Source of the DNA: Proteinivorax tanatarense
Lineage (GTDB): Bacteria > Bacillota > Proteinivoracia > Proteinivoracales > Proteinivoracaceae
Assembly: GCF_040267685.1 (NCBI RefSeq)
Contig: NZ_CP158367.1
Span: forward strand, 186,001 to 250,000
Reading direction: 5' to 3'
Length of the DNA: 64,000 bases
The position numbers were made by a program, and so were the translations under genes. How positions within the stretch are numbered: position 1 is the stretch's first letter; each line of letters begins with the position of its first letter. Shown one piece after another: positions 20,803-54,143 of this stretch. The notes below the pieces were generated by a model. The model was not told where the DNA came from and made no database searches. It was given only the letters and a program-made list of their open reading frames with translations.

Positions 20803-20807
20803 CCTAT

Positions 20808-28812: not shown

Positions 28813-29859
28813 TTGAATATAACAGAACTGACTACTAATGATACCATTTTTTCCTTGGGACTTTATAATGCAGTAACCATAGAGCGGATGTTTAATGAAA
28901 GTAAAATTGTCTTCGATTATGAGGAGGAAAAACTGGGTATTGATGGTTTATACGTAATGTATTCTGATGAAATGAATGAACTTTTAAAGTTTATGAACGA
29001 CAGGCAAAAGTTACATGGTTTTTGTCCTTACTGCAATAAGGAACTAGTATTTAATTTGACATCGGTAGAAATTAATAGTGAATTATTGGAAAGAAAGGTT
29101 TGTGTGTTAAAATATTCTGCTATTGGTCCTGAAGAATATGATTCAATGGAACGCCATAAAGATTATAAATGCAATGAGCGCATAGAATTATTAAAGAACT
29201 ATACATATTTTAATAAAAAAGCTATATGCACTTTTGATAGTAGCCATATAATGAACTTTTTCTTTAAATTGGATATTTCTTATACTGGTGCAAAGGATTC
29301 AGTTACATTAACAAAAGTAGGGCAAAGTCCATCTTATACAGAAATGAACAGACATAAACACAAGAAGTTTTCAAAAGTACTGAAACAAATAAATAGCTAC
29401 GATGACTATGTAAAAGGGGATAATTTATTCTCACATGATGTTGGGGTGGGCGCCTTTGTTTATCTTAGAAGGATACTTGAAAAGATATTACTATTTAAAT
29501 TTAATGACTATACTAAGCATAAGGGCGAAAAAAAAGCCACTAGTATTCATGAATTTAAAAACATGGAGATGGAGAAAAAAATAAAACTATTAAAAGGATA
29601 TTTACCAAAAGAATTTGATAACCTAAAACAAGTTTATGGAATTTTGAGTTCAGGAATTCATAATTTAGAAGAAGATAGTTGCAAAGGATATTATCCAGTG
29701 CTAAAGACAGCTATTGATTTAATTTTACTTGAACAAAAAGAAAGCATGGAGAAAGAAAAACTAAAGAACAAAAACAAATCTGCTATTAATAAAATAACAC
29801 CAGAAGTAGGTGAAAAGGCAGATAAAGAACTAAAAAAGTTGGCTGGGAGTAAAAAGTGA
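28813..29859 (+). CDS. Hypothetical protein with zinc-ribbon-like cysteines and possible HEPN-like C-terminus
   Basis: 348 residues from TTG 28,813. The middle contains GFCPYCNKELVF (about residues 73-84) and later single Cys/His positions (YKCNE, ICTFDSSH), compatible with a degenerate zinc ribbon. The C-terminal 130 residues (YLRRILEKILLFKF ... VYGILSSGIHNLEED) resemble DUF4145/HEPN-type helical domains, but no R-x4-6-H RNase motif is seen. It stands alone between two palindromic repeats beside a restriction-modification pair. A defence role is only a guess. Confidence 0.45.
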   Translation: MNITELTTNDTIFSLGLYNAVTIERMFNESKIVFDYEEEKLGIDGLYVMYSDEMNELLKFMNDRQKLHGFCPYCNKELVFNLTSVEINSELLERKVCVLKYSAIGPEEYDSMERHKDYKCNERIELLKNYTYFNKKAICTFDSSHIMNFFFKLDISYTGAKDSVTLTKVGQSPSYTEMNRHKHKKFSKVLKQINSYDDYVKGDNLFSHDVGVGAFVYLRRILEKILLFKFNDYTKHKGEKKATSIHEFKNMEMEKKIKLLKGYLPKEFDNLKQVYGILSSGIHNLEEDSCKGYYPVLKTAIDLILLEQKESMEKEKLKNKNKSAINKITPEVGEKADKELKKLAGSKK

Positions 29860-29990
29860 GAAATAAACTAAATCTTATAAGCTATTGTGTTAATTTGGAT
29901 GAATAAGATAATATAAAAGCGAGTACAACACCTTATTAAATAAACCTGTTCTTGTATTATAGTAACAAGAAAGTGACAAACAGGTATAAT

Positions 29991-30046
29991 GCAAAAAGAG
30001 TAACAATAAGCCCTTCTCTCTAAAGTCAGGTTCTTATTGTTACTCT
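29991..30046. repeat. Palindromic island repeat, copy 2
   Basis: AGAGTAACAATAAG at 29,997 pairs with its inverse ending at 30,046; the loop again has TAAAGTCAGG. It sits between the 348-residue gene and the methyltransferase gene. Confidence 0.85.
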
Positions 30047-30220
30047 ACTAACATTGCGTTTTTTATAAATATAAATCTAATGGACAAACTTTTTTTAAAA
30101 GCATGTTTTAATATTCGTAAACAGAAATAAAAATCCGTTTTACAAGAGGCAAAATAGTATGTAAAAAAAACAGATGTTTGATATACTAGGTATATACTTA
30201 TTAAGAAAAGAGGGTAAAAC

Positions 30221-31054
30221 ATGACAAAGAATAAACTAGTACAACCACCCTTGAAATGGGTGGGGGGTAAAAGACAACTTATTTCAGAAATCGAAAAATC
30301 CCTCCCAAATAAATGGTCAACATATTACGAACCGTTTGTAGGTGGTGGGGCTGTATTATTTCACTTGCAGCCTAAAAAAGCTGTTATTAATGATGTAAAT
30401 GATGAGTTAATTAATTTTTATAGTACTGTAAAAGAAAATGTTGAAGAATTAATCAATGAATTAAAAAAATTTAAGAATAAAGAGGACTTTTTTTATGAGG
30501 TGCGTGGTTGGGATAGGAGTCCAGCATACAAGGATTTATCTAGTATAAAAAAGGCTGCTCGTTTACACTTTTTAAATAAGACTTGTTATAATGGTTTATA
30601 CAGGGTTAATAATGCGGGGGAGTTTAATGCCCCTTTTGGTAAATATAAAAATCCTGATTTTGTAAATGAGTCTGTATTGAGAGCAATAAACATTTTTTTA
30701 AATAAAAGCAACGTAAGAATATGTAATTGTGACTATCAAGATGCTTTGCGAGGGATAAGAAAGGGAGCTTTTGTTTATTTTGACCCTCCTTATGACCCTG
30801 TTTCATCTAGCGCAAGTTTTACAGGATATTCTCAAGGAGGTTTTGATAGAAATGAGCAAATAAGGCTAAAAGAAATTTGTGATAAATTAAATAAGAAAGG
30901 AGTCAAGTTTCTGCTTTCTAACTCAGCAACAGATTTTATAAAGGAATTATATAAGGAGTATGACATTAAAATAGTTAAAGCGAGAAGAAGTGTAAACTCT
31001 GTTGCTTCTAAGAGGGGGGAAGTTGAGGAAATACTTGTGAAGAATTATGACTAA
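30221..31054 (+). CDS. DNA adenine-N6 methyltransferase, Dam/D12 class
   Basis: 277 residues with the D12-class signatures: the AdoMet-binding PPLKWVGGKRQLI at residues 6-18, YYEPFVGGGAVLF near 38-50, and the catalytic FDPPYDP near residue 187. Relatives methylate GATC or related sites. It overlaps the following nuclease gene by 8 nt, so this is the modification half of a type II restriction-modification system. The recognition sequence cannot be read from the protein with certainty. ATG lies 8 nt after AGAGGG. Confidence 0.92.
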   Translation: MTKNKLVQPPLKWVGGKRQLISEIEKSLPNKWSTYYEPFVGGGAVLFHLQPKKAVINDVNDELINFYSTVKENVEELINELKKFKNKEDFFYEVRGWDRSPAYKDLSSIKKAARLHFLNKTCYNGLYRVNNAGEFNAPFGKYKNPDFVNESVLRAINIFLNKSNVRICNCDYQDALRGIRKGAFVYFDPPYDPVSSSASFTGYSQGGFDRNEQIRLKEICDKLNKKGVKFLLSNSATDFIKELYKEYDIKIVKARRSVNSVASKRGEVEEILVKNYD

Positions 31055-32324
31055 AGTAAATAAAGGTTGGGAAGAGTTGTTTGAGAGGCACAATATTTTG
31101 TATAAGGTAGATACCGAAGGATATTATAAAGTAACGTCAAAAGCAATAAATAAGGTCAGAGAAGCTAGGCTAATGACAAAATTTGACCACAAGAATAACC
31201 TTCCGGAAATTTTTCAACAGAACAACTTGTCTATTTTGCCTATTACTAGGGGCAGTTATGTTATATCAAAATTTGATGCCTATAAAGAGTTACACTATAA
31301 CAAAGACTTAGATACCGCTGAAATAGAGTTCCCATCTGAGATTGAGAGTATTGATTTTAGTAATATTTATAGTGAAGCAACGGCTTTAAATTGCGCCTAT
31401 TCTACAGGAATAATAAATCTTTTTTTAAATGAAGAACATACACTGCCAACTATCAGCGGAAGAATGAGTTCAAGCAGTTTTAGTTTTAATATTAGAAATA
31501 TTGAAACTAATAACAAATTTCCAGTTGATGTTCAGAACAGTCAAGTTGAAATTGATGGAGGATATGAAGGTAGAAACAAGCTTATGCTCGTAGAAGCTAA
31601 GAACTCTGTGTCAAAGGATTTTCTTGTAAGACAACTATACTATCCATATAGATTGTGGAGACAGAAAGTAAGTAAAGAAGTAGTTCCAGTATTTATGACG
31701 TTCTCTAATGATGTATGGAGTTTTTTTGAGTACAAGTTTACAAACCCCTTGGAATATAATTCACTTGTACTTGTAAAACAAAGAAACTACATGATAGCAC
31801 CAGAAAAAATAAACTTAAATGATATAAAAAATGTCTTAGAAAATGTGACCATTATAAAAGAACCAAAAGTTTCATTTCCGCAAGCTGATTCATTTAAAAG
31901 AGTTATCAATTTGTTAGAGATGCTAATGGAAAAAGATTTGGATAGGGATTACTTGACACATACACTAGATGTTCACCCTAGGCAAACTAATTATTATACG
32001 AGCGCAGCTATGTACTTAGGTTTAATAGAAAAGAAAAGAGAAGATGGTGTGACTCTTTACTACGTTACAGAAGAAGGTAAAAAAATTATGAATATGACAT
32101 ATAAAAAGAAGTATTTATCAATAATAGAGAAGATACTTAGGAATCCTTCATTTAACGAGTCCTTTAGGTGTTTTTTGAAAGACGGGTATCCACCAGATAA
32201 CAAAAAGATTGTTGAAATAATGAAAAAAACGAATATCTATAAAGTTGAAAAAGATAGTACCTTTTCCAGAAGAGCTACAACAGTAAAATCCTGGTTAGAT
32301 TGGATTTTAAGCTTACAAGAATAA
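31047..32324 (+). CDS. Type II restriction endonuclease (PD-(D/E)XK type)
   Basis: 425 residues, overlapping the methyltransferase gene by 8 nt. A probable nuclease centre EIDGGYEGRNKLMLVEAKNS fits the D-x(n)-E-x-K pattern (about residues 172-190). A C-terminal winged-helix-like part (about 285-425; HPRQTNYYTSAAMYLGL) may bind DNA. It resembles type II enzymes that pair with D12 methylases. The combination protects the host while cutting unmethylated DNA, and helps keep the element in the cell. Confidence 0.8.
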   Translation: MTKVNKGWEELFERHNILYKVDTEGYYKVTSKAINKVREARLMTKFDHKNNLPEIFQQNNLSILPITRGSYVISKFDAYKELHYNKDLDTAEIEFPSEIESIDFSNIYSEATALNCAYSTGIINLFLNEEHTLPTISGRMSSSSFSFNIRNIETNNKFPVDVQNSQVEIDGGYEGRNKLMLVEAKNSVSKDFLVRQLYYPYRLWRQKVSKEVVPVFMTFSNDVWSFFEYKFTNPLEYNSLVLVKQRNYMIAPEKINLNDIKNVLENVTIIKEPKVSFPQADSFKRVINLLEMLMEKDLDRDYLTHTLDVHPRQTNYYTSAAMYLGLIEKKREDGVTLYYVTEEGKKIMNMTYKKKYLSIIEKILRNPSFNESFRCFLKDGYPPDNKKIVEIMKKTNIYKVEKDSTFSRRATTVKSWLDWILSLQE

Positions 32325-32472
32325 AGGAAATGTAAATATTCGCTTTCAATTCTAGTAATGTAGAAGTTTAGAAAATAAGACAGTATAATATCTAAATTAA
32401 AAGCAAATATGGTTCCATTTACATAGACTTATTTATAATTCCCTAAAACAAGAGCACAAACCAAAGCATAAT

Positions 32473-32533
32473 GCAAAAAGAGTAACAATAAGACCCTCCC
32501 TTAAAGTCAAGTTCTTATTGTTACTCTTTTTTT
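32473..32533. terminator. Palindromic island repeat, copy 3, between convergent genes
   Basis: The stem GCAAAAAGAGTAACAATAAG and its inverse ends in T7, between the restriction enzyme gene (+) and the primase gene (-). This copy is well placed to act as a bidirectional terminator. Confidence 0.8.
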
Positions 32534-32535
32534 AC

Positions 32536-34479
32536 CTAAGCATCTAAAATATCTTCCTTAACAAGCAAGTATTTTTTTGTGTCTATGCCAAGTGCTTTAT
32601 TAACCTTCTTGTTTGCTTTTATATAAGAGAGGTTGTATTTTTGCATAACATCAGGCAAAATTCTTTTAAGTTCATACTCTTTTTCTCCACGTCTAATATA
32701 GTTACCACCTGCTTGTAATTGTCGATTTATCAGCATACTCTTAGTAAAATAGCCGCAGGATTTAATTTGTTGTAGAATGAAATCTTCTATAGTTCGGCTA
32801 ATTTTTTCAGACTTCCTGCTTTCTTTTATATTTGTATGATAAATTTGGTTTACTAATGCTTCACCGAAACAGTTTACTACAAACTTCTTGCTCATTCCGT
32901 TAATACTAAAGCCATACCTCAGCATCTTTTCTGCCCGCTCATTAGCGATTTTCAATATCCTGTTATAGTCGGGAACAGTGTAAAAAGATATACCTATATA
33001 ACCATTACTTTTAGCCATTTCCTTTGCCTTTTTTTGTAAATTCACGTTAACTTTACTATAGGGGATTTTATTCAATAATCCTAAAGTACAAAATAAGTTA
33101 ACATATTTATTTACGTTTCCCGTGCTTTTTTTTAGCTTTTTTGCTAAAAATCCATTAGAAAAGAAGAACAGATTATCGTCATCAACACTAAAGTATCTAT
33201 TATAGGTATTTTCCTTAGAAATTTCGAGAATCGTTATTAAAGTTTGGAAGCCAAATCTAATAATCCTGTTCAATTTTGGGAAGTCCTTTTCTATCTGGGT
33301 AATTAAGTAGATGTTTGTATCAATTTTTTTAGTCTGTTTACTTATCCAACTTGAGTCGATGTTTTTAATATCAAAATACTCTATTAAATGACTTATAGCC
33401 TGAGAAGTGGTCAAGTTTTCCTTGTATTCGACAATATCAATTATATCAGCACCGTTTTTAAATTGGCAGTTAGTTGAATTACAAAAATATCTATAGGCCC
33501 CATTTCTGTAGGTTATAACAGCACTTGGCTTTGAATCTTTATGAAAGACACAATTGAAGTTCACATTAAGTTCTGAATCTAGGCCTAAAAAATCTACCAG
33601 GTTCTGTGATTTTAAAAATGGTATTAAATTTTCATATGATATCGTAGAGGATGTTCCATGTTGATTAGGCTTATAAGTCTTAAGATTATGAGTCTTTGTC
33701 TTTTTATTAATCGTTTTCTTATTACTAGGAGTGGCTACCTTGTACCCTATTGCATTGGCAATATCATCCTGAGTGTATTTTTTTGAATTGTCAAAATGAA
33801 TACATTTTATTTTAAAAGGATTTTCTAAATCTTTTAAGTGATTGTAGTTTATGACTCTTAAAACTCTGCTTAAGTCCTTAACATTTGCATCAATATGTTC
33901 TTCTCTTTCTTCAAATCTAGCAAAGTACTTAATTAGTTTCTCTTGGAGAGCTGTAAAGGTTTTAAGGGAATTATCACTATCGTTTTTTACCAGCCAGTAA
34001 ACATGGAAACCATTTTTGGTTTCTACAATAATGTTGGGACATAGCTCAAACCTATTTAAATTTTTAAGAGCATTTGTTTTATATTTATTAACTTCATGGT
34101 GGCTTCTATATTCATAAACAACTTTCCCATTAGAATCTAGTAAAATTTCCCCATTAACTATTTTCGGGACCTTACCAAAATCCATATCAAGAAAATGAGC
34201 GTTAACCCTTTTTATAGATTTTTTAGTAGTTCCTCCACTATTAACAACAAAGTAAATTCCATAACCTTCTCTTTGTGCTTTTTCAAAGTGTTTTCTAGTT
34301 AAAGGATATTCTAGTTCATCATCTAATCTTAATGTTGAGTCTAGTTTTTTGGCCCCATACCCTTGCTCCTGAATCATTCTGAAATAAGTTTTTTCGTTAG
34401 GACCTCTAAATGCAGATAAAAACTCTATATCTGTAATATTAAGTTGTTCTCGGTTAGTAAAGTCTAATTTTAAATTCAA
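32536..34479 (-). CDS. Archaeo-eukaryotic-type primase / plasmid replication protein with CHC2-like zinc finger
   Basis: 647 residues when started at TTG 34,479, which has AAGGAGGAG 8 nt upstream; a GTG at 34,509 is in frame but lies before that site. The N-terminal half has the AEP primase motifs: HFLDMDFG (metal-binding Asp98 and Asp100), GFHVYW (His159) and DLSRVLRVINYNH. A CHC2-type zinc finger follows (CVFHKDSKPSAV ... YRYFCNSTNCQF, about 315-360). The C-terminus looks winged-helix-like. Such proteins initiate replication of plasmids. It supports a plasmid origin for the island. Confidence 0.85.
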   Translation of the reverse strand: MNLKLDFTNREQLNITDIEFLSAFRGPNEKTYFRMIQEQGYGAKKLDSTLRLDDELEYPLTRKHFEKAQREGYGIYFVVNSGGTTKKSIKRVNAHFLDMDFGKVPKIVNGEILLDSNGKVVYEYRSHHEVNKYKTNALKNLNRFELCPNIIVETKNGFHVYWLVKNDSDNSLKTFTALQEKLIKYFARFEEREEHIDANVKDLSRVLRVINYNHLKDLENPFKIKCIHFDNSKKYTQDDIANAIGYKVATPSNKKTINKKTKTHNLKTYKPNQHGTSSTISYENLIPFLKSQNLVDFLGLDSELNVNFNCVFHKDSKPSAVITYRNGAYRYFCNSTNCQFKNGADIIDIVEYKENLTTSQAISHLIEYFDIKNIDSSWISKQTKKIDTNIYLITQIEKDFPKLNRIIRFGFQTLITILEISKENTYNRYFSVDDDNLFFFSNGFLAKKLKKSTGNVNKYVNLFCTLGLLNKIPYSKVNVNLQKKAKEMAKSNGYIGISFYTVPDYNRILKIANERAEKMLRYGFSINGMSKKFVVNCFGEALVNQIYHTNIKESRKSEKISRTIEDFILQQIKSCGYFTKSMLINRQLQAGGNYIRRGEKEYELKRILPDVMQKYNLSYIKANKKVNKALGIDTKKYLLVKEDILDA

Positions 34480-35020
34480 TTTATACTCCTCCTTCTCAGA
34501 AGGAGCCACTAAATCTACTTAAATCACTCGATGATGAAAACATTTTTATTCGCAATATACTGTTGTTAAACGGTTAAATAGCTTTTCTTTTCCACTATTA
34601 GTAACTCCGTTTTTGAAATTGTTTAGAATTTATGTTCTGAATTACGCCTTGTACCATTTTAAAGAAGAGTAACAATAAGAACCTGACTTAGGGGAGGCTT
34701 TTATTGTTACTCCTTTCTACATCATGGTTGCTATTGGTAGCTCTCATAGGAAGCTAGATAAATGTTTTTCTCACTGTCTTTAAATTAAAACCGATATATA
34801 GTTATTTCAGGACTATATTAATTCGGACCATAATATATTTGCATAATAAACACCACCCTTTATTTAAATTTAAAATCAACTCAAACTCTGTATTAACTCT
34901 GTATTTTTAACATAACACATTATATTTTGAATCATATCCTAGGGAGGATAGAACTAAAAAAGTTTGAAAATAAGCTAGTCTTCTTTTAAAATTTGCTTAC
35001 CAAATTTAAGGAGGAATTAA
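34480..35020. other. 541-bp spacer, possible origin region of the plasmid-like part
   Basis: It lies between the divergent primase and SpoVS-like genes, and holds palindromic repeat copy 4. A 21-bp motif at 34,900-34,920 (TATTTTTAACATAACACA core) occurs identically at 24,582-24,602, upstream of the four-helix-bundle gene. No iteron array is evident. The rest is AT-rich. Confidence 0.4.
34666..34712. repeat. Palindromic island repeat, copy 4 (opposite orientation)
   Basis: AGAGTAACAATAAGAACCTG pairs imperfectly with TTTTATTGTTACTC; compared with copies 1-3 it is the reverse complement. Confidence 0.8.
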
Positions 35021-35290
35021 ATGCAAGACAAAGTCTTGAAAGTTGCAGAAACTACAAATTTAAACGCTTTAGTTAGAGTGATGAAAAGACAGATTAAAGA
35101 GAAAAGTTTTGTCGAAATTCAAAGTATAGGTCAATGTTCTAGCTATAAAGCCGTAAAAGCACTAATTAAAATTAGAGAATATTATAGGGATATAGAAAAA
35201 GAAGTGGAGCTAAAGCCTGAGTATGTGGAAATAAAAACAGAGGGGGGTAAAATAAAAACTGCTATAAAATGGAATATTAAAACTAACTAA
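35021..35290 (+). CDS. SpoVS-like protein (Alba-like fold)
   Basis: 89 residues from ATG after AAGGAGG. The pattern VLKVAETTNLNALVRVMKRQ then FVEIQSIGQCSSYKAVKALI matches the stage V sporulation protein S family, whose chromosomal members read VLKVSAKSNPNSVAGALA and EIQAIGAGALNQAVKA. SpoVS affects sporulation and septum formation and has a nucleic-acid-binding Alba-like fold. Here it lies beside a plasmid replication gene. A strong palindromic terminator (35,285-35,330) covers its stop codon. Confidence 0.85.
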   Translation: MQDKVLKVAETTNLNALVRVMKRQIKEKSFVEIQSIGQCSSYKAVKALIKIREYYRDIEKEVELKPEYVEIKTEGGKIKTAIKWNIKTN

Positions 35291-35330
35291 CATAAGACAC
35301 ATGGATAATCCATGTGTCTTATGTTAGTTA
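35285..35330. terminator. Palindromic terminator of the SpoVS-like gene
   Basis: AACTAACATAAGACACATGG pairs perfectly with its inverse around a short centre. The stop codon TAA 35,288-35,290 lies in the left arm. Confidence 0.75.
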
Positions 35331-35421
35331 AAAGAACTATGTTTAGCTTTGAATAGAGCCTAACTATTTTTAGTTGATATCTATCAAGGGGGACATAGTG
35401 GGCGCAAAAAAAACATATCTA

Positions 35422-35478
35422 AAAAAGAGTAACAATAAGAACCTGACTTTAGGAGAGGTTCTTATTGTTACTCTTTTT
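35422..35478. repeat. Palindromic island repeat, copy 5 (opposite orientation)
   Basis: AAAAAGAGTAACAATAAGA continuing ACCT pairs perfectly with AGGTTCTTATTGTTACTCTT; it lies 40 bp before the IS21 element. Confidence 0.85.
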
Positions 35479-35645: not shown

Positions 35646-37235
35646 TTGAAGAGGTGGGATATGTTTGCCAAAATTAAAGAAAATAGGTCTAGGGGATTAA
35701 ATAAATCCCAAGTTGCAAGGCTACTAGAGATTGACTACAAGACCGTATCAAAGTACTGGGATATGGAGTTTGATGAGTTTTCAGAGCTCCATAATACAGC
35801 TCAATCACGGAGAAAGAAGGTGGATAAATACAAAAAGCAAATTTTAGAATGGATTAAAGAATACCGAGATATGTCAGCCGCTCAGATTTATGATTGGCTT
35901 TTAGAAAAACATGGTGAGCTAGATTTTAAGGAAAGAACTCTAAGGCTCTATGTAAACAAGCTTAGAAAAGAATATGACTTGCCCAAAGTGACATCAGTTA
36001 GGCAGTATGAAGAAATAGAAAATCTTCCTATGGGGTATCAAGCTCAAGTTGATCTAGGAGAGATATGGCTTAAGACACATGATAATAAAAGAGTAAAAGC
36101 ATATTGTTTTGGAATGGTTTTATCCCATTCAAGATACAAGTTCGTATGGTGGTCGGACAAGCCATTTACAACATCAAGTTTCATCAAAGCCCACAACAAA
36201 GCTTTTGAGTACTTTGGCGGCAGACCCAAAGAGATAGTTTATGATCAAGATAAAGTACTAGTAGTTTCTGAAAACAATGGAGATATATTATATACCGAAG
36301 GATTTCAAAATTATCTTAACTCTCTTAAGTTTAAAGTGTACCTTTGCAGAAAGGCTGATCCTGAAAGCAAAGGCAAAGTAGAAGCTGTAGTAAAGTATGC
36401 CAAGAATAACTTCGCTAAACATAGAAAATTTGTAGATATTGAATCCTTTAATGATGATAATCTAAAATGGCTAGAAAGAACCGGCAATAAAAAAGTCCAT
36501 GAAACAACAAAGAAGGTACCGGCAGAAGTGTTTGCTCTGGAAAAGGAACACTTAATGCCAATACCTACCCTCTTTGCTGAATCAACTGATACTAAAATTT
36601 TAACCTATCTAGTAAGAAAAAACAATACAGTATTTTACAAACAAAACAGATATCAAGTACCCATAGGGACTTATTCACCAGGTAAAGAAGTTAATTTATC
36701 AGTTAAAAAAGATTGTATCGAAATAATTGATAAAGATACTAATGAGTTGATTATCACACATAAAATTGCTAAAGGAAAAGGTCAGCTAGTAACAATAGAC
36801 CACCCAGATAGGCAAAAATCAAGAAAGTACAGTTGCGACGAAATGCGTGAGAAAGTTTTAAAAAGTTTAGGAGAAACTGATAAGGCAATAACGTTTGTTG
36901 ATATCATTAGGGCTGAAAAATCTAGATACTTTAAAGATCAATCTAACCTAATAATTAAAACAGTGACATCTGAAAACCCGTCACTTGTACAAAAAGCTAT
37001 TGATTACTGCGTTGAAAGAAAACTCTACAGCGCTGGCATGCTTAAGGATACAATCCAATACTTTAAGGAGGAAGAAAAACGACAACTTAATAAAAAGTAC
37101 TTTAAGGCAGACATTTCTACCCCTTCAAAGTATCAGGATTTAAAGCCTGAAATAAGAAGTATTGAAGAGTATACTAATTCTTTGAAAGGGGACAGTCACA
37201 GTGGAGAAATTGGAGCTAATCAAAGAAAATGCTAA
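35646..37235 (+). CDS. istA: IS21-family transposase IstA
   Basis: 529 residues from TTG 35,646 with GAGGAGG 8 nt upstream. It has an N-terminal helix-turn-helix (RGLNKSQVARLLEIDYKTVSKY), a DDE integrase core with GYQAQVDLGEIWL (first Asp), PKEIVYDQDK (second Asp) and ESKGKVEAVVKYAKNNF (Glu), and a C-terminal Mu-transposase-like beta domain. It overlaps istB by 35 nt as in other IS21 elements. It cuts and joins the IS ends. Confidence 0.95.
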   Translation: MKRWDMFAKIKENRSRGLNKSQVARLLEIDYKTVSKYWDMEFDEFSELHNTAQSRRKKVDKYKKQILEWIKEYRDMSAAQIYDWLLEKHGELDFKERTLRLYVNKLRKEYDLPKVTSVRQYEEIENLPMGYQAQVDLGEIWLKTHDNKRVKAYCFGMVLSHSRYKFVWWSDKPFTTSSFIKAHNKAFEYFGGRPKEIVYDQDKVLVVSENNGDILYTEGFQNYLNSLKFKVYLCRKADPESKGKVEAVVKYAKNNFAKHRKFVDIESFNDDNLKWLERTGNKKVHETTKKVPAEVFALEKEHLMPIPTLFAESTDTKILTYLVRKNNTVFYKQNRYQVPIGTYSPGKEVNLSVKKDCIEIIDKDTNELIITHKIAKGKGQLVTIDHPDRQKSRKYSCDEMREKVLKSLGETDKAITFVDIIRAEKSRYFKDQSNLIIKTVTSENPSLVQKAIDYCVERKLYSAGMLKDTIQYFKEEEKRQLNKKYFKADISTPSKYQDLKPEIRSIEEYTNSLKGDSHSGEIGANQRKC

Positions 37236-37962
37236 AAAATTAAAGCTTGACTACTTAAATACAAACGCTTCTCAAGTCGTTCAAGATGCAGATGGAAAAA
37301 GCATTTCATATCAGCAATTTTTGTTAAACATACTTCAGGAAGAAATGAAACTAAAAGAAGAAAAAGCACAGGCAAGAAGGCTAAAAAACGCTGGTTTTCC
37401 TACACTTAAAATTATAGAAGATTTTGATTTAGATTTTCAAAAGTCCATAACTCAAAGACAAGTTAACAGTTTATCGGAATTGGAATGGATAGACCGTATG
37501 TATAATTTAATTTTTTTGGGCCCTCCTGGGGTCGGTAAAACTCACTTAGCAATAGCACTAGGCTACAGGGCTGTTGAGATGGGGTACAAGGTTAGCTTTG
37601 TTACTATGAACGACCTTATGCACTGTTTAAAAACCCAAGAGATATCAAGAAAAAGTAAAGGCAAAATAAATAAGGTTTTGTCCTCTAGCTTACTAATCAT
37701 CGATGAACTAGGTTACTTGCCGATATCTAGGGAAGAGTCTAACCTGTTTTTCCAACTCATAACGGCACTTCATGAACAAGCATCACTTATTATTACCTCA
37801 AATAAAGGTCTAGAAGACTGGACTGAACTATTGGGTGACCCAGCTTTAACTACAGCTGTTTTAGATAGAATCACTCATAGATGTGAGTTATTTAATATGT
37901 CAGGTAAAAGTTATAGATTAGCACACAGAGAATCATTTTTTGAAGAAAATTCTAGGTTTTAA
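37201..37962 (+). CDS. istB: IS21-family helper ATPase IstB
   Basis: 253 residues, AAA+ ATPase of the DnaC/IstB type: Walker A GPPGVGKTH with Lys113, Walker B LLIIDELGYLP, and the arginine-rich end RITHRCELFNMSG. It starts at GTG inside istA. IstB oligomers remodel target DNA and recruit IstA. Confidence 0.96.
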   Translation: MEKLELIKENAKKLKLDYLNTNASQVVQDADGKSISYQQFLLNILQEEMKLKEEKAQARRLKNAGFPTLKIIEDFDLDFQKSITQRQVNSLSELEWIDRMYNLIFLGPPGVGKTHLAIALGYRAVEMGYKVSFVTMNDLMHCLKTQEISRKSKGKINKVLSSSLLIIDELGYLPISREESNLFFQLITALHEQASLIITSNKGLEDWTELLGDPALTTAVLDRITHRCELFNMSGKSYRLAHRESFFEENSRF

Positions 37963-38545: not shown

Positions 38546-39553
38546 ATGCTAACTGCTTACTGTCCAAACTGTCAGAAAAAGCATGAATATGTTATTCGTG
38601 AAAACTTGATTGAAAATTTTAAAGGCTATCCTTTAAAGGTAAAGGAAGAAATTCCAATATGCTCTAATTGCAACAAAGAAATTTTTATACCTGAAGTTGA
38701 AGAGCAAAATTTAATTAAGCTCTATGGTGAATACAGAAAAGTGGCAAATATAGTCTCGCCTGCTGACTTAATTGATTTCAGAAACAGGTTTAATATATCT
38801 CAACGGGAACTTGTCGCAATATTAAATTGGGGGAAGATGACGGTTAACAGATACGAAAAAGGTGCAATTCCAAGTTCAAGTCATAATGATTTGCTTAAAA
38901 TTATCATGAAAGATGAAATGATTTTTAAAGAGAAAGTTGAAGATGCATTTAAAAAAGGAAGAATTACAAAAAAAAGTTATAACAAAATCAAACAAAAATT
39001 TAACCATTCAATAAAAGATATGATGAAAAAATTGTGCATTCAAAGCTTGACTCATACAGAAAGTGAATATAATGGTTACAGAAAATTTGATATTGATAGG
39101 GTAACTAACTTAATTGGGTATATTGCAGATAAAGTCGAATTATATAAAACAAACCTTAATAAATTTCTGTGGTACATTGACTTTGAAAATTTCAAAAGAC
39201 AAATTCGTTCAATCACCGGGATTCAGTATATGAGATACACACATGGGCCAGTTATAGAGGAATTTGGTTATAATGAGATATTAAACTTTTTTAACGATAA
39301 GTTTAAAGTGATTGAAACAGAAAGGGGCAACAATACAATTACAAAAATCGAAAGCAACAAAAATTACGACCTATCTATATTCGATGACGATGAAATTAAA
39401 GTAATTAATGATGTCATTGCTAAGTTTAAAGATATGAGCTGTATCGCAATTTCCCAGCGCTCACATAAAGAAGATGCTTGGAAAGAAAATAGTGACAAAG
39501 ATTTAATAAGTTATAATTATGCAATGGACTTAAAAGAAAACTTCAGTGACTAA
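38546..39553 (+). CDS. Antitoxin: MqsA-like zinc finger, HTH and Panacea (DUF4065) domain
   Basis: 335 residues. The N-terminus has two CxxC pairs (CPNCQKK and CSNCNKE, residues 6-44) like MqsA/YgiT. A helix-turn-helix follows (FRNRFNISQRELVAILNWGKMTVNRYEKG written as FNISQRELVAILNWG and MTVNRYEKG, about 80-108). A C-terminal Panacea domain has LYKTNLNKFLWYIDFENF and YMRYTHGPVIEEFG. Panacea domains act as chaperone-like antitoxins for varied toxins. ATG follows AAGGGGTGAT, 18 nt after the toxin remnant. It should neutralise the MqsR-like product and repress the operon. Confidence 0.85.
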   Translation: MLTAYCPNCQKKHEYVIRENLIENFKGYPLKVKEEIPICSNCNKEIFIPEVEEQNLIKLYGEYRKVANIVSPADLIDFRNRFNISQRELVAILNWGKMTVNRYEKGAIPSSSHNDLLKIIMKDEMIFKEKVEDAFKKGRITKKSYNKIKQKFNHSIKDMMKKLCIQSLTHTESEYNGYRKFDIDRVTNLIGYIADKVELYKTNLNKFLWYIDFENFKRQIRSITGIQYMRYTHGPVIEEFGYNEILNFFNDKFKVIETERGNNTITKIESNKNYDLSIFDDDEIKVINDVIAKFKDMSCIAISQRSHKEDAWKENSDKDLISYNYAMDLKENFSD

Positions 39554-39673: not shown

Positions 39674-40525
39674 ATGTCAAAAAATAATAATACATGGAGC
39701 GAAAGGAAATTTACTCGGTTTATTAAAGAAGGGAGAGGCCAAGGCAGAGGAAGTGGCTATAAACCGTGGCTTACAATACAAGACTTTCCTTCTAAGGGGA
39801 GAGTGAGTAGGCTAAAGGGGTGGAAAACAAACAGAATCCATCATTTTTTCACAGACACCCAAACTCGTTTCTTTTATTTACTTGAGTGGGAGGATGCTGT
39901 AATTGATATCAGAGAACACTTCCCCCTGTTTAATCTCGAAGAAAAAATTGATACTAAAGACATAAACATGGAAAATTTCAAAGACAAGGAAAGTGGTTTT
40001 CCGTACACAATTTCCACAAGCTTTCTAATCACCATAAAAGATTGTCATGGGAATTTAGAATATGCAGCTAGAAGCATCAAGGCTGACTATGAGTTGGAAA
40101 AAAAGAGAACCCTAGACAGACTTGAATTAGAAAGACGATATTGGAAGGCCAAAGGAATTGATTGGGGAATCTTGACGCAAAAAGAAATTAATAAAACTAA
40201 AGCCAAAAACATCGAATGGATTCACGCTGCATATTTTCTTTTAGAAAATGAAGAAAAAGCTAAAGATTTAGGTTACCTAACGGAAGTTCTGCAGGAGGAA
40301 TTGACAAAAAGTAGCTTGCAGGTAAGATTAGCGCTCAAAAAATTTGATGAAGAGCTAAAACTGGAAACAGGAACAGCTTTAATGCTGTTTAAACATTTGA
40401 TAGCAAGAAAAAAAATAGTGGTAGATTTAGAAAAAGAAATCAAATTGAACCTGAAGCCAGACGAGTTAATTGCAAGATTTAATGAAAAGGTGCGGGAGGG
40501 GGAGGGACTTGTTAGTAACTGTTAA
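39674..40525 (+). CDS. tnsA: TnsA-like heteromeric transposase endonuclease subunit
   Basis: In Tn7, TnsA cuts the 5' ends of the transposon while TnsB cuts the 3' ends. The 283-residue protein has the restriction-enzyme-like N-terminal domain (FYLLEWEDAVIDIREHFPL, residues 67-85; SIKADYE with Lys136) and the winged-helix C-terminal half (LDRLELERRYWKAKGIDW). The Tn7 catalytic Asp114 lies in STDFL; the matching stretch here reads STSFL, with Ser116 at that place. If correct, 5'-strand cleavage would be lost and transposition would be replicative. ATG follows AAGGAGG. First gene of tnsABCD. Confidence 0.92.
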   Translation: MSKNNNTWSERKFTRFIKEGRGQGRGSGYKPWLTIQDFPSKGRVSRLKGWKTNRIHHFFTDTQTRFFYLLEWEDAVIDIREHFPLFNLEEKIDTKDINMENFKDKESGFPYTISTSFLITIKDCHGNLEYAARSIKADYELEKKRTLDRLELERRYWKAKGIDWGILTQKEINKTKAKNIEWIHAAYFLLENEEKAKDLGYLTEVLQEELTKSSLQVRLALKKFDEELKLETGTALMLFKHLIARKKIVVDLEKEIKLNLKPDELIARFNEKVREGEGLVSNC

Positions 40526-42659
40526 TACGCTAGTTTCTTGGTATGTAAAAGACGAAAAGAAAACAGAAAGAATCCTTTGGCTTGACAGAAAAACAGATGT
40601 AGCATTTGTCATTGATATAAATGAAAACAAACTCCCAACTTTAAAAATATTAAGCGAAATCGAAAAAGAGGTGGAAAGCGGCAGCGCATCTGTAGAAGTG
40701 AATGATAAATGGCAGAAAAACATAACCGAAAACAAGCTACAAAAAAATCATAAAGAAAAGAGAGATAGAAGATGGACGATAATTGAGAAGATAGCAACAA
40801 AAGAGCCTGATATTTACATGAAAGAAAAAAGAAGTATGTTACTAAAAGAAGCTGCAAAAGCGCATAATGTACCCGAAGGGAGCATAGCTAGAATATTAAA
40901 ATTATTTTGGAGGGGAGGCAAGACAAAAAATGCCTTAACCCCTGATTATCAAAAAGCAGGGGGGAGAGGAAAAGAAAAATCAGCTGGAGGTATAAAGAGA
41001 GGGAGACCCCGAAAACAGGGGGAAATCTTTGGAGAGGGAGTTAACATCGATGAAAGGATAAAGGAGATATTTCAGGCTGCTGTGAACAAATACTACTATA
41101 GCTATAACCAAAACACATTAAGATTTACTTACGAAATGATGCTGAAAGAATACTTTTCAGACAAAGCTACAACTGATACTGGTGCGAAAATTCCTGTCAT
41201 AAAATCAAGCAGCGAAATTCCAACCTACAATCAGTTCAGATATTGGTATCAAAAACAGCGAGATTTCAAAAAAGAAGTTAGGTTAAGGCGTGGTGCTAAG
41301 AAGTATGAACAACAAAATAGGTCTGTTTTAGGAAACTCAACATCTGAAGCTTTAGGGCCAGGTTCAATTTATCAAATTGATGCAACTATAGGCGATGTTT
41401 ATCTGGTGAGCCAATTTAATAGAAATTGGGTCATAGGTAGGCCAGTAATCTATGGCATAATTGATGTTTTTTCGAGGTTAGTTGTTGGGATATATGTGGG
41501 TCTTGAGGGCCCATCTTGGACTGGTGCCATGATGGCCCTTGCTAACGCAGCTATGGATAAAGTACAGTTTTGCAAAAAATATGGAATTGAGATAACTGAA
41601 AAACAATGGCCGGCTCAACATTTGCCTGACGCTATTTTAGGGGATAGAGGGGAACTAGAAGGAAAAAATGTTGAGAATTTAATTAGTTCTTTAGGCGTTA
41701 AAATACAAAATACCCCTCCATATAGAGCTGACTGGAAAGGTATTATCGAACAGAATTTTAAAACGACAAATCAAAGGGTGAAGCCCTTTACGCCAGGTGC
41801 GGTTAACGTAGATTTTAACGAAAGAGGAGACAAAGACTATAGGCTAGACGCTAAATTGACGTTAAAAGAGTTTACACAGATTATAATAAGGTCAGTACTA
41901 TTTCACAATAACTACAATATTTTAAAAAATTACAACCGAGAAGATATGATGATTGAAGATGATGTGGAACTGTTGCCGCTTAGTCTTTGGAAATGGGGTA
42001 TAGCTAATCGCTCTGGAAAGTTAAAAAGTGTAGACGCTGATATAATTAAATTGAGCTTGTTACCTAACGCAACGGCGGCAGTTACAAGTAGGGGTATTAA
42101 ATTTAAAAAAATGTATTATGCTTCGAATTTGACAATTCAAGAAAACTGGTTTGAAAAGGCAAGAAACAAAGGTTATTGGAAGGTAGATGTATCTTATGAC
42201 CCACGAAATATGAAGTATCTTTACGTGCATGCTGGCGGTCATGGCGAGTTTGAAAAATGCCAAATGTTAGATTATCAGGAGAGTTATTTTGATAAATTCT
42301 TTGAAGAAATTGAGTTTCTTCAAGAAAAAGAAAAAAATGATATTAAAAAAATGGAAGAGCAGGAACTGCAGCAAAAAGTGGAAATGATGACTGAGGTAGA
42401 GCAGATTGTCAAAAAGGCAGAGATTGAATTTGAAAAAGAGTTAGAGCATGTAAGCAAATCTCAAAAAATCAGAGGCATAAGGGAGAATAGAAAACTTGAA
42501 AAAGAGTATAACCGTGGGGATGAAGCTTTTGAACTGCAGAAGACCCCAAAAAGAGATGCTGAACTTATAAAACTAAAGGGCCAAAAACCTCATGAAAACC
42601 AAGATGAAATGGACTTACTGAGAAAAAAGCAAAGGGAGGCATTTTTTACCGATGACTAG
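40509..42659 (+). CDS. tnsB: TnsB-like transposase (DDE/retroviral integrase family)
   Basis: It cuts and joins the 3' ends of the element. TTG 40,509 is chosen, since the purine tract GGGAGGGGGAGGG (40,494-40,506) is the only ribosome binding site; the frame is open from ATG 40,470. It gives 716 residues: helical DNA-binding domains, the integrase core with YQIDATIGDVYL (Asp), AILGDRGELEG (Asp) and DWKGIIEQNFK (Glu), a Mu-type beta barrel, and a charged coiled-coil tail that would contact TnsC. It overlaps tnsA by 17 nt and tnsC by 8 nt. Confidence 0.95.
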   Translation: MLVTVNTLVSWYVKDEKKTERILWLDRKTDVAFVIDINENKLPTLKILSEIEKEVESGSASVEVNDKWQKNITENKLQKNHKEKRDRRWTIIEKIATKEPDIYMKEKRSMLLKEAAKAHNVPEGSIARILKLFWRGGKTKNALTPDYQKAGGRGKEKSAGGIKRGRPRKQGEIFGEGVNIDERIKEIFQAAVNKYYYSYNQNTLRFTYEMMLKEYFSDKATTDTGAKIPVIKSSSEIPTYNQFRYWYQKQRDFKKEVRLRRGAKKYEQQNRSVLGNSTSEALGPGSIYQIDATIGDVYLVSQFNRNWVIGRPVIYGIIDVFSRLVVGIYVGLEGPSWTGAMMALANAAMDKVQFCKKYGIEITEKQWPAQHLPDAILGDRGELEGKNVENLISSLGVKIQNTPPYRADWKGIIEQNFKTTNQRVKPFTPGAVNVDFNERGDKDYRLDAKLTLKEFTQIIIRSVLFHNNYNILKNYNREDMMIEDDVELLPLSLWKWGIANRSGKLKSVDADIIKLSLLPNATAAVTSRGIKFKKMYYASNLTIQENWFEKARNKGYWKVDVSYDPRNMKYLYVHAGGHGEFEKCQMLDYQESYFDKFFEEIEFLQEKEKNDIKKMEEQELQQKVEMMTEVEQIVKKAEIEFEKELEHVSKSQKIRGIRENRKLEKEYNRGDEAFELQKTPKRDAELIKLKGQKPHENQDEMDLLRKKQREAFFTDD

Positions 42660-44310
42660 AAAAATTAATATTCCTAACGGTGCTGAAGCAGTTAAAGCAA
42701 GCTATATAGAGCAAGCGATAAGGGAATATCAAGGTAACCCTTTCATAGAGGCGCTTCCACCAATTTTGAATAAAGGAGAGGTAGTTGAGAAGTTGGCTGT
42801 CTACCCCCATTATGATGAAGGTGAAAAGAATCTAGCTCCTCACCTGAGGCTACACATAGTACAGAGGATATTTCAATGCCTTCAACCTTTGCCCATACAT
42901 TTAGACTTGGAAAGTAGGATTTCTAGGGTGATTCGGCAGGGGTACTTAGCAAGAAACCCTTCTAAGCCAGAATTCGCAGAAAGCTTTCATACAGGAAAAA
43001 AAATGATTGAAAATCTAAGCTTAGAGATTTCAAATAACGATAAATTTAGAAGCACAGCATCGGGTTTTACAGTTATAGGTGTAAGTGGCATGGGAAAAAC
43101 AACGGCAGTAAACCAAGTGCTGTCAACTATACCCCAGGTTATCGTTCATTCAGAATACAGGGGAAATCAATTTAATATGCATCAATTGTCGTGGCTAAAG
43201 CTGGACTGCCCTTTCGATGGTTCTGTTAAGGGCCTGTGTATGGAGTTTTTTGCCAAAGTTGATAGCTTATTAGGGACCACCTATTTCAGAAAACATGGAG
43301 CTAAAAGAAACACCGTTGATTCAATGCTGACAGTGATGAGTCAGGTTGCAAGAAATACTGCCCTCGGAATGTTAGTTATTGACGAAATACAACACCTAAA
43401 AGAAGCCAAAAGTGGTGGAAGCTCGAAGATGCTAAACTTTTTCGTTACACTTATTAATACAATCGGACTGCCCGTTATCCTGATTGGCACCCCAAAAGCT
43501 ATGTCCATACTTCAATCAGAGTTTAGGCAAGCCCGACGGGGTAGTGGGCAAGGAGACTTTGTTTGGGATAGGCTGAAAAAAGATATGAACTGGGACCTTT
43601 TCATCGAGGCTTTTTGGGAATTTCAGTGGACCCGAAAGAAGACCCCCTTGTCTGAGGAGATAAAAGAAGTGCTTTATGAAGAAAGTCAGGGAATCATTGA
43701 TGTAGCTGTTAAGCTCTTTGCGATGGCACAAGTAAGAGCAATTAATTCAGGAAAGGAACATTTAGATAAAAAGCTTATCAAACAGGTAGCAAAAGAAAAT
43801 CTTAAACTGATAAGGCCAATGATTCAAGCGCTCAAGAGCAACAACATGAGTAAAGTAGCAAAGTTTGAAGATATTTCAAACTTGGATTTTGAAGAATTTT
43901 TGATTGAAGAAACACCAAGAGTAAACAGTTCTGAAGAAAAGATTAAAGAAATATTACTAAAGAAAAAATCCGCCGAAAATGAAAAAAACATTTCGGCAAA
44001 AGAAAAAGCAGTGCTGAAACTATTAGATTTAGATATTCCTTCTAAAAAAGCTGCAGCACTAGTATCAAAAGTTATAGAAGATGAAAGTGATGACATTTCA
44101 GTTTCGAATCTAGTAATAAAGGCTATAAAAGTAAATTCAGAAGAGAAAAGCACAAGAGATAATATTAAAATTAAAAAGCTAAAGAAAGATGATTTAAGGG
44201 CAATAGCAAAAGAAAAAAATAATAATTCAACATATCAATCATTTAAAGAAAAAAATATTATTAAAAATAGTCCAGATGATTTTTCTGAAAGGGTGTTTTT
44301 GGATGATTAG
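42652..44310 (+). CDS. tnsC: TnsC-like AAA+ transposition regulator
   Basis: 552 residues. Walker A VSGMGKTTAV with Lys149, Walker B LVIDEIQHL with Asp244-Glu245, and sensor region LPVILIGTPKA. TnsC joins the target selector (TnsD) to TnsAB and gives target immunity. The C-terminal 130 residues are highly charged and probably bind TnsA/TnsB. ATG 42,652 overlaps the tnsB end by 8 nt. Confidence 0.95.
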   Translation: MTRKINIPNGAEAVKASYIEQAIREYQGNPFIEALPPILNKGEVVEKLAVYPHYDEGEKNLAPHLRLHIVQRIFQCLQPLPIHLDLESRISRVIRQGYLARNPSKPEFAESFHTGKKMIENLSLEISNNDKFRSTASGFTVIGVSGMGKTTAVNQVLSTIPQVIVHSEYRGNQFNMHQLSWLKLDCPFDGSVKGLCMEFFAKVDSLLGTTYFRKHGAKRNTVDSMLTVMSQVARNTALGMLVIDEIQHLKEAKSGGSSKMLNFFVTLINTIGLPVILIGTPKAMSILQSEFRQARRGSGQGDFVWDRLKKDMNWDLFIEAFWEFQWTRKKTPLSEEIKEVLYEESQGIIDVAVKLFAMAQVRAINSGKEHLDKKLIKQVAKENLKLIRPMIQALKSNNMSKVAKFEDISNLDFEEFLIEETPRVNSSEEKIKEILLKKKSAENEKNISAKEKAVLKLLDLDIPSKKAAALVSKVIEDESDDISVSNLVIKAIKVNSEEKSTRDNIKIKKLKKDDLRAIAKEKNNNSTYQSFKEKNIIKNSPDDFSERVFLDD

Positions 44311-46138
44311 TTTTTTTCCGACACCCTACGAAGACGAGACTCTCCATAGCGTCATAGCACGGTACCATCTAAGGAGTGGGAATCAAAGCTCAAAATCAAC
44401 ATTGCAAGAGTTGTTTAGTCAAAAAACAGTCACAGCCACTGTTGATTTGCCCTCCCATATCGGGGAACTTATTGATAATTTACCACTTGGCAATCAAATG
44501 GATGCTGAATATTTAATCAAACACCACACTCTTTATCCTTTTTACACAGCTTTTTTGGATAGTGAAAGAAAAAAGAAGATTTTTAATTCCATGGCAGAAG
44601 GGAAAGGAGCTAGCATTCATAACAGTGCAGGAATCATGGCAAGCTCTATTAAAGCAAATAAATATTTAAAATTTTGCCCTTTATGTTTTAAAGAAGAGGC
44701 AGATAGCCTCGGGGAACCATATTGGCACAGAGCACATCAAATACCAACAATCCCTATATGTCATAAGCACCGAATCCCCCTGCAAAATAGTCAAGTTTTA
44801 CTTAAACCACAAAATAAACACCAGTTTATAGCAGCAACTAAAGAAAACTGCGTTATTCAGAGTTCAGATAGTTATGCCGAGGAAACTATTAAAATTTTAT
44901 TTATGTTAGCTAAAAATGCTTATGTTATACTCCAGAATAATTTTAATAATATAGGTGAATTTAATATTAAAAATAAATATTATGCAAGGTTGCAAGAGAA
45001 GAGGTTTGCTACTGTCAATAGTAGAATCTATCGAACCGAATCAACGCGAGAGTTTAAAAAATTTTTTGGCAGTGAACTCTTACAATTAACTCAATCAGAT
45101 TTTGACTCAGAAAAGAACTCCAACTGGTTACTGGAGTTTTTAACAAAACAGGATAGAGCAATGCATCCGACTAGGCATTTATTGCTAGCGATGTTTTTAA
45201 ATATTTCTTTGTATGAGCTTTTTTCAGGCGAAACCAAATTTAACACCTTTGGAGCTGGGCCATGGCCCTGTTTAAACAAAGTCTCAGACCATTATCAACA
45301 GTTGACAATTCCTGATATTATAATAAGCCATAGCTCAGATGCCAAAAAGCCTATCGCTACATATAATTGCTCAAAATGTGGATTTGTCTATAAAAGAACA
45401 ATGGGGGAAAAAAACTATAGGGTTATAGATTATGGTTTTAGGTGGAGGGAAAAGCTAAAAGAACTGTCAAAAAAGGGATTATCTCTCAGGGAAAAAGCTA
45501 GAATATTAGGAGTCGACCCCAAAACAGTAAAAAAATACCTAGAAAAAGATAAAAGGCGTGAAAGTCCCAAGGAAAACAAAGAAAGGATAACAAAAGATAA
45601 AGAGAATTACAGAACAAGCTGGCTTGTAACTATAGCAGAAAATAGGGAGAAGGGAAAAACCCAGGTAAGAAAACTAAATCAACGGGCATATTCGTGGCTT
45701 TACAAAAATGATAGAGATTGGCTCATACAAAACTCACCAGCTAGCACACCAGCAAAACAGCAAAACATTAAAGTGGACTGGCGTGAAAGGGATAAAAGAG
45801 TTTCAGAGATGGTTAAGGAGGTGGTCGATGAAAAACTTAGCTCAGAAAGTAAACCGGAAAAAATAACCAAAAGCAAAATAGGCAAAGAGTTAGGTATTCA
45901 AGATTTGCTTCAAAAGCACCTAAGTAAAATGCCTAAAACTAAGCATTATCTAACTGGTGTATTAGAGTCAGATTATACATTTAGGAAGAGGCGAGTAAAG
46001 TGGGCTATTACAGAATTGGAAAGGAAAAACAAATCCTTAAAAAAATGGGAAATCTATAAACAGGCTGGAATTAGAAAAGAATACAAGCAAGAATTGGATG
46101 AGTTCGTTGATGAATTAATAAGTGATAGGGAGAACTAA
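44303..46138 (+). CDS. tnsD: TnsD/TniQ-family target-site selector
   Basis: 611 residues from ATG 44,303 (GAAAGGGTG upstream; overlaps tnsC by 8 nt). The TniQ domain begins FFPTPYEDETLHSVIARYH. The zinc-binding cluster is CPLCFKEEADSLGEPYWHR followed by CHKHRIPL, and a second CSKCGF lies near residue 358. The long C-terminal half with a helix-turn-helix (LSLREKARILGVDPKTVKKYL) is TnsD-like rather than short TniQ-like. This fits recognition of attTn7 at glmS, where the island sits. No tnsE follows. Confidence 0.92.
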   Translation: MISFFPTPYEDETLHSVIARYHLRSGNQSSKSTLQELFSQKTVTATVDLPSHIGELIDNLPLGNQMDAEYLIKHHTLYPFYTAFLDSERKKKIFNSMAEGKGASIHNSAGIMASSIKANKYLKFCPLCFKEEADSLGEPYWHRAHQIPTIPICHKHRIPLQNSQVLLKPQNKHQFIAATKENCVIQSSDSYAEETIKILFMLAKNAYVILQNNFNNIGEFNIKNKYYARLQEKRFATVNSRIYRTESTREFKKFFGSELLQLTQSDFDSEKNSNWLLEFLTKQDRAMHPTRHLLLAMFLNISLYELFSGETKFNTFGAGPWPCLNKVSDHYQQLTIPDIIISHSSDAKKPIATYNCSKCGFVYKRTMGEKNYRVIDYGFRWREKLKELSKKGLSLREKARILGVDPKTVKKYLEKDKRRESPKENKERITKDKENYRTSWLVTIAENREKGKTQVRKLNQRAYSWLYKNDRDWLIQNSPASTPAKQQNIKVDWRERDKRVSEMVKEVVDEKLSSESKPEKITKSKIGKELGIQDLLQKHLSKMPKTKHYLTGVLESDYTFRKRRVKWAITELERKNKSLKKWEIYKQAGIRKEYKQELDEFVDELISDREN

Positions 46139-46872
46139 CAGTTTATGATAAACCAAAAATATAAGAAAAAAGATTAGGCTTTTTTTAAAAAAATCCACTA
46201 AAAAGAGGAGTTACTTGAAAAACTAGCAAAAAGCAACTACTCCTTCGTCAACTACCCACCACTTAAACTCTAACGAGTTTTGAAGTGGGGGCTTGTAAGA
46301 GCCCTAGTTGACTAGCCTAAGTACTATAAGTGCTACGTTATTTTAGTTATCATACCCTAGAATGATACCCTAGTTCTAGGCTCTATGTAGGCTCTGTAAA
46401 CAGTCCTGATGGGTAGGGGCAGTCAACCTAAAGTGTATTTCGCACATACAAGCTATTATAACATTGGCGAAGGGTAACTACTTGTTGGTGGAACAAGGAT
46501 ACATTTATGTAATGTATCGCAAAACCACTGAAGATACATTACCAATTCATCCCCCACCTAAAGAGGGTGGGGACTTCTTGGCAAATGAAGTTAACGAAAT
46601 GAAGTGTTTATATAGCTTAAGTAGTCAAGAAACTACTGATTTTCAGTTCTTAAAAAGATAATAGAAACTCACTCTTGAACAGAAGGATTTGATTAATAGA
46701 AAACAATCGTAATTAACAACTATATGTTCCAAAAACAATTGATAATGGCACACCTTAGCAGATGTGCCATTTATCGTATTTATCATGTTTCATAATTATT
46801 ATTCAAAAACTATTGTTTTTGGTATGTGTTTGTGATACATTTAAAACAATTAATGGAAAAAGGTGGTATATA
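46139..46872. other. Spacer after tnsD
   Basis: Besides the RNA element, a hairpin GGAGTT...AACTACTCC (about 46,207-46,243) may end the tns operon. The 200 bp before the resolvase gene show AAGGTGG as its ribosome binding site and nothing else. Confidence 0.5.
46230..46585 (+). ncRNA. Orphan HEARO/omega-RNA-like structured RNA with IS200/IS605-type end hairpin
   Basis: Strong structure without an ORF. A helix GTCAACTA (46,247)/TAGTTGAC (46,305) encloses two hairpins (CCACTT..GAAGTGG and GGGCTTGTAAGAGCCC). Further hairpins follow at 46,319-46,333 and 46,350-46,372, and then the stretch GGGTAGGGGCAGTCAACC. It ends in the hairpin CCCCCACCTAAAGAGGGTGG and ACTTCTTGGC, typical of IS200/IS605-family ends. 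This resembles the RNA of IscB/TnpB-type elements, but no nuclease gene is present. Family assignment is from memory of such ends. Confidence 0.55.
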
Positions 46873-47451
46873 ATGAAGTTTGGTTACGCACGAGTGTCGA
46901 CTCAAAAGCAAAACCTTCAAATGCAAATCGACGCTTTGGAAAAGCATGGAGTAGATGAAATCATTTCCGACAAAATAAGTGGCTCGAAAGTTGAGAGAAA
47001 AGGATTGAACAATTTATTAAATAAACTAAGAAAAGGAGACACCCTTGTCGTTTGGAAGCTGGACAGACTTGGGAGAACAATGTTTCAGTTAGTTAACTTG
47101 TTAAATGGGTTTAAGGATAAAGGTATAAACTTCATTTCAATACAAGATGGAATTAACACAAGCACAACCATGGGTAAATTTATGTTTCACGTAATGGGAG
47201 CCATGGCTGAAATGGAAAGAGAAGTAATAAATGATAGGGTGAAAAGTGGCCTAGAAAGTGCTAAGGCTAGAGGGCGGCAAGGTGGGAGAAAAAAAGCCCA
47301 CAGTAAGGAAAAGATTGATACTATGGTAAAAATGGTTTCAGATGGTTATAGCAAGAAAGAGATTTGCGAGAGTATGGGGGTAAGCAGGACAACTTTATAT
47401 AGGTATATAAAGGAAGCTGAGTATTTTACACAAATTAAGACTAAATATTAA
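46873..47451 (+). CDS. Serine recombinase of the resolvase/invertase family
   Basis: 192 residues from ATG 46,873 (AAAAGGTGG upstream; the frame is open further 5' but without signals). The catalytic serine is in GYARVSTQKQNLQ, with WKLDRLGRT, MGAMAEMEREVINDR and the C-terminal helix-turn-helix YSKKEICESMGVSRTTLYRYI. It is closest in layout to Tn3-type resolvases and Hin/Pin invertases. It could resolve cointegrates or plasmid dimers, which matches the structure proposed for the island. No res-site repeats were confirmed in the flanks. Confidence 0.93.
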   Translation: MKFGYARVSTQKQNLQMQIDALEKHGVDEIISDKISGSKVERKGLNNLLNKLRKGDTLVVWKLDRLGRTMFQLVNLLNGFKDKGINFISIQDGINTSTTMGKFMFHVMGAMAEMEREVINDRVKSGLESAKARGRQGGRKKAHSKEKIDTMVKMVSDGYSKKEICESMGVSRTTLYRYIKEAEYFTQIKTKY

Positions 47452-53279: not shown

Positions 53280-53284
53280 CCCAT

Positions 53285-53760: not shown

Positions 53761-53765
53761 CCTAT

Positions 53766-53980: not shown

Positions 53981-54143
53981 CCCATTGTCTCCCAATAAAA
54001 AAGTTTGTTCAAAGATAAAAAAGATTGTTCAAAACTCATAAAAAAGATTGTTCAAAACACAAATCCCTGTCGAATTCTGTCGGTTATCCACATCTTATCC
54101 ACAGAAGACGGCAGGGATTTTTATTAAAGTCATAGAGAAAAAG

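Follow-up and report, generated by a model that had tools for sequence, protein, structure and literature searches.

Tn7 TnsA has an active site made up of Glu63, Asp114, Glu149 and Lys132. May and Craig reportedly observed in 1996 that engineered Tn7 TnsA active-site mutants leave the donor backbone flanked by two mini-element copies in direct orientation. For Tn6677, Vo et al. found that the TnsA substitution D90A replaces simple insertions by cointegrates (over 95%), in which two mini-transposon copies enclose the donor backbone (PMC8188705), and Benler et al. (2021) linked the absence of tnsA with the gain of serine or tyrosine resolvases (PMC8649781). We found no description of a natural TnsA clade without the catalytic Asp, or of integrative plasmids such as those presented here, in the open-licence literature. 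Here we analyse a Tn7-like locus of Proteinivorax tanatarense within a 64,000-nucleotide stretch of DNA, the window, and compare it with related loci.

Results

The window TnsA has lost two acidic active-site residues

The tnsA reading frame contains both the N- and the C-terminal Pfam TnsA domain, and its product is a near full-length match to Tn7 TnsA (1f1z/1t0f; residues 1-266, E 6e-48). An AlphaFold model of the protein (mean pLDDT 90) also matches 1t0f/1f1z over almost the full length, with an E-value of about 1e-20. The end-to-end alignment bears out the claim of the first-pass annotation that Tn7 Asp114 is replaced by serine: the window motif reads ISTSFL and places Ser116 opposite Asp114 and Lys136 opposite Lys132. 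The retention of Lys136 had been read correctly, but the rest of the domain is not intact as had been claimed, since the position of Tn7 Glu63 is occupied by Gln63 (DTQTRF versus DLELAV). Two acidic residues of the site are therefore gone, and in place of E63/D114/K132 the protein carries Q63/S116/K136. From this pattern we infer that the window TnsA is probably devoid of nuclease activity.

Loss of Asp114 is fixed in a clade of Bacillota

By scanning named genomes we collected 80 TnsA loci; the first scan, with a single query sequence, had given no matches. We refer to TnsA proteins without Asp114 as D-less and to those that keep it as D-type. When the motif columns were masked for tree calculation, the 35 Bacillota D-less TnsAs all fell into a single clade (support 0.92), and the TnsAs closest to it retain the Asp. 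Residue 114 is Thr in 21, Ser in 10 and Asn in 4 members of this clade, whereas Asp114 is present in 50 of 53 homologues outside it, the exceptions being three Acinetobacter sequences. The replacement is thus beyond chance. A second acid is also missing in 25 of the 35 D-less proteins (E63Q in 18, loss of E149 in seven more); among the D-type TnsAs, Glu63 and Asp114 occur together in 50/50 and Glu149 in 49, with Asp at that position in one. Lys132 is invariant among the compared TnsAs, Gln82 is changed to His in 33 of the 35 D-less proteins, and the alignment offers no obvious candidate for a clade-specific replacement acid near the site. Such a combination would be expected where selection keeps the protein but no longer its function as a nuclease.

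A sequencing error or a pseudogene was considered as the source of Ser116 and is ruled out by the fixation of the Asp loss across 35 relatives. The three Acinetobacter species (A. indicus, A. lwoffii and A. tandoii; loci L090, L092 and L093, TnsA at 10001) carry an independent D114S together with Q130R and keep Glu63; their tnsA lies 162-163 bp after glmS in an ordinary Tn7 layout.

Two identical mini-elements flank a plasmid-like body in the window

The features of the locus are collected in Table 1. Insertion took place 24 bp past the glmS stop. The direct repeats to which the first-pass annotation had alluded are real: R1 and R2 are 1179 bp long, 100% identical and in the same orientation. 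The tnsABCD genes sit between two LE-RE copies and outside each of them, and TnsB has DDE residues that line up with those of its Tn7 counterpart (7pik). As a free circle carrying a single mini-element block, the plasmid would measure 32,958 bp. Since the repeat is itself a three-part array, its history comprises more than one event.

Table 1. Features of the Tn7-like locus, in window coordinates.
Feature	Position	Strand	Remarks
glmS, attTn7 target gene	18005-19819	+	Pfam SIS and GATase domains
Left outer target-site duplication CCCAT	19839-19843		same as 53981-53985
Mini-element copy R1	19844-21022	+	LE TGTCTCCC... to RE ...ATAGACA
Parts of R1	m1 19844-20321, CCCAT, m2 20327-20802, right-half remnant 20803-21022
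Putative integrated plasmid body	21023-52801		31,779 bp between direct repeats; plasmid-type genes
Four-helix-bundle protein gene	24168-24611	-	PF05635
ParM-like actin-family plasmid partition gene	24822-25763	+	ALP_N/MreB-like; partition phrog_691, E 2e-34
Primase-like protein, possible plasmid replication gene	32536-34509	-	phrog_25531 (function unknown), E 2e-36; weak primase matches
tnsA	39674-40525	+	283 aa; Q63 codon 39860-39862, S116 codon 40019-40021; K136 kept
tnsB	40470-42659	+	E 7e-112 to 7pik; true start may be later
tnsC, AAA+ regulator	42652-44310	+	TniB/AAA_22
tnsD/TniQ target selector	44276-46138	+	TnsD E 5e-98, TniQ
Small serine recombinase (resolvase)	46762-47451	+	PF00239, E 3e-47; start likely internal Met 38
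Mini-element copy R2	52802-53980	+	identical to R1
Right outer target-site duplication CCCAT	53981-53985
Left end of another, older element at this att site	53986-54141	+	86% identical to mini-element positions 1-146

Several other features were noted in the window. The plasmid body contains an IS21-type istA/istB pair upstream of tnsA (35646-37962), a D12-class adenine methyltransferase beside a DUF6996/6997/7226 protein, which together resemble a restriction-modification cargo pair (30221-32324), and, immediately upstream of tnsA, an antitoxin-type gene, MqsA-like plus SocA/Panacea domain (38546-39553). Terminator-like inverted sequences of 25-60 bp around AAAGAGTAACAATAAGA recur between cargo genes (28372-35478), and two arrays of tandem repeats, each repeat about 120 bp long, surround an ABC transporter gene pair (60592-63561). 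Inside LE lies a hairpin-like repeat that ends in a T-run (19929-19964), with similar copies near 21981, 54051, 55456 and 57137; it may be a terminator, a recombination site or an old scar.

Related D-less loci share the cointegrate-like plan

The first-pass annotation had proposed to look for conservation of Ser in a clade with cointegrate insertions. This check came out positive in the nine D-less loci with full context, i.e. the window, G085, G277, G401 (Thermoanaerobacter wiegelii), G403 (Clostridium bovifaecis), G405 (Metabacillus bambusae), G408 (Terrilactibacillus tamarindi), G411 (Clostridium homopropionicum) and G418 (Paenibacillus glycinis). All nine are flanked by direct mini-element repeats of 293-1440 bp and 99.7-100% identity, between which lies a plasmid-like body of 29-54 kb, and every unit contains tnsA. 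The repeat runs from TGT to ACA in eight loci, that of G085 being without a recognisable right end. Outside the whole unit a perfect 5-bp duplication is found in 5/9 (CCCAT in the window, GTTAT in G277, GTACA in G405, GTTTT in G408 and ATAAG in G411); none was found in G401, G403 or G418, and inner flanks matching each other as direct repeats were never seen. The most widely shared cargo is the PF05635 four-helix-bundle gene, with homologues in eight of the nine units. The primase-like gene has homologues in five, and a ParM-like gene is also present in five, the ParM model matching the window product only below the cut-off.

Each of the eight units whose RE is defined has TAG next to the RE on the plasmid side, across genera (TAGTTA in five, TAGAAGG in two, TAGTAGG in one), and the draft locus L062 shows the order glmS, mini-element, TAGTTA, tnsA. 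As the mini-element has the same neighbours in different genera, it was not cut out and moved, and the donor stayed intact. In G411 (L153-L155) the unit lies between 3076 and 57705 in reversed order, 15 bp after a gene that, from reading its protein sequence, we take to be recR. The pattern is therefore not bound to glmS, which suggests a second att site for the TnsD of this subclade. Relatedness within the clade means that the common architecture does not count as independent evidence, although each insertion is an event of its own. Should a published assembly have linked, via the repeat, a free plasmid to a scar in the chromosome, the integration would be an artefact, yet one mini-element per molecule would still imply copying.

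Controls, recombinases and searches for free plasmids

Of the 36 D-type loci with sufficient DNA upstream, 22 have a tnsA that begins 148-393 bp after glmS, as against none of the Bacillota D-less loci, and among loci of at least 10 kb site-specific recombinase genes occur in 14 of 30 D-less versus 0 of 38 D-type loci; these two counts share phylogeny and differ in upstream DNA, and we regard them as supporting rather than independent. High-identity direct repeats around tns were absent from five D-type contigs of 60-80 kb, the near relative G151 included. The controls are imperfect, as the chromosome and not the element stands upstream of D-type tnsA.

A serine or tyrosine site-specific recombinase is encoded in eight of the nine complete units, in several directly upstream of tnsA; no res site was identified. 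The resolvase downstream of the window tns genes, to which the first-pass annotation had given a part, is of a type that is not conserved, and it is the presence of some such recombinase that holds. A conserved serine resolvase as partner is ruled out, the window type being rare in the clade and other recombinases occurring instead. Searches for a free circular plasmid with a D-less TnsA in PLSDB and for relatives in IMG/VR found none.

Discussion

We propose, with a probability of roughly 0.8, that these loci represent integrative plasmids whose resident mini-element brings them into att sites by replicative Tn7 transposition, the decayed TnsA being kept as a structural subunit. The starting point would be a plasmid, of about 33 kb for the window, that carries an LE-RE mini-element with tnsABCD outside it. 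TnsD would guide the complex to the region 3' of glmS, where TnsB would nick the two 3' ends of the mini-element and join them to the target. TnsA may act here as a structural partner whose metal site has decayed (D114S, E63Q), so that the 5' strands would stay uncut. Replication across the mini-element would then yield a cointegrate in which two mini-element copies in direct orientation enclose the whole plasmid and the 5-bp duplication lies outside them. If host RecA or a unit-encoded recombinase subsequently recombined the two copies, the plasmid could be released, with one mini-element remaining as a scar at the att site. Such scars may be represented by the tandem units in the window, by an extra mini-element copy in T. 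wiegelii and by a decayed mini-element downstream of glmS in the same-genus genome G056, which has no tnsA and whose glmS is 97.8% identical to that of the window. The earlier proposal that natural loss of 5'-strand cutting explains the repeats around the plasmid is thus supported by the clade-wide loss and the cointegrate-like loci. Its description of a replicative Tn7-like element is likewise supported, with the correction that the transposing unit would be the short LE-RE mini-element, the tnsABCD genes lying outside it on the plasmid body.

Other explanations have to be weighed against this reading. The whole unit, 34 kb in the window, might be a composite transposon in which two mini-elements around tns and cargo are moved by cut-and-paste through the outermost LE and RE. 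The outer 5-bp duplications would fit this equally well, but the catalytic Asp is missing from TnsA in every member and a second acid in most, each unit would need two mini-element insertions that are 99.7-100% identical in nine lineages, and the conserved TAG flank on the plasmid side would be left unexplained. We therefore consider such a transposon quite improbable. Homologous recombination between the mini-element of a plasmid and an old scar already present at the att site is also improbable. It could account for the units without perfect duplications, and candidate scars do exist in the window, T. wiegelii and G056; the scars themselves, however, require transposition of the mini-element, a position of tns outside LE-RE is only sensible if the donor backbone comes too, and the clade-wide loss of the TnsA site finds no explanation.

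That the D-less TnsA retains nuclease activity by means of another residue, such as His82, in the metal site is very improbable. While the invariant Lys132 and the Q82H change, which tracks the Asp loss, would be in line with a retained activity, this idea is opposed by the lack of an obvious replacement acid in the alignment, by the additional loss of Glu63 or Glu149 in 25/35 and by insertions that look like cointegrates.

Replicative entry by the resident mini-element may be part of a wider picture, which we hold to be somewhat more probable than its opposite: an undescribed class of Bacillota integrative plasmids that repeatedly enter and leave attTn7-type sites, with the mini-element acting in an attP-like manner, TnsA as a pseudoenzyme and scar arrays that record the visits. 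Exit by recombinase-mediated resolution belongs to the same joint reading and shares its standing. It would follow that whole plasmids can reach a defined chromosomal site by such a route, and retention of TnsA as part of the transposase complex without nuclease function is suggested. TnsD-directed insertion of an entire circle could serve as a tool.

The D-less units share with cut-and-paste Tn7 the tnsABCD order, the TGT...ACA ends, the 5-bp duplication and the TnsB DDE residues, as well as an attTn7 site behind glmS, the usual location for elements directed by TnsD. They differ from Tn7 in that the TnsA metal site is lost and the tns genes lie outside LE-RE, and, in contrast to a simple insertion, a whole donor plasmid (a 31.8-kb body in the window) is inserted between duplicated ends. 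The structure found in the nine genomes matches the shape of the Tn6677 D90A cointegrate. Unlike in the engineered TnsA mutants, the loss here arose naturally, has become fixed in a clade and goes together with a plasmid architecture that fits it. The link to recombinases is comparable to that described for elements without tnsA, with the difference that TnsA is here present but degenerate. With the TnsA-less Tn5053/Tn402 and type V-K CAST elements the D-less units have in common a predicted cointegrate product and a frequent serine or tyrosine recombinase. Unlike these, they have a conserved tnsA with a degenerate site, are targeted to att sites by TnsD, and their product is seen as an integrated plasmid.
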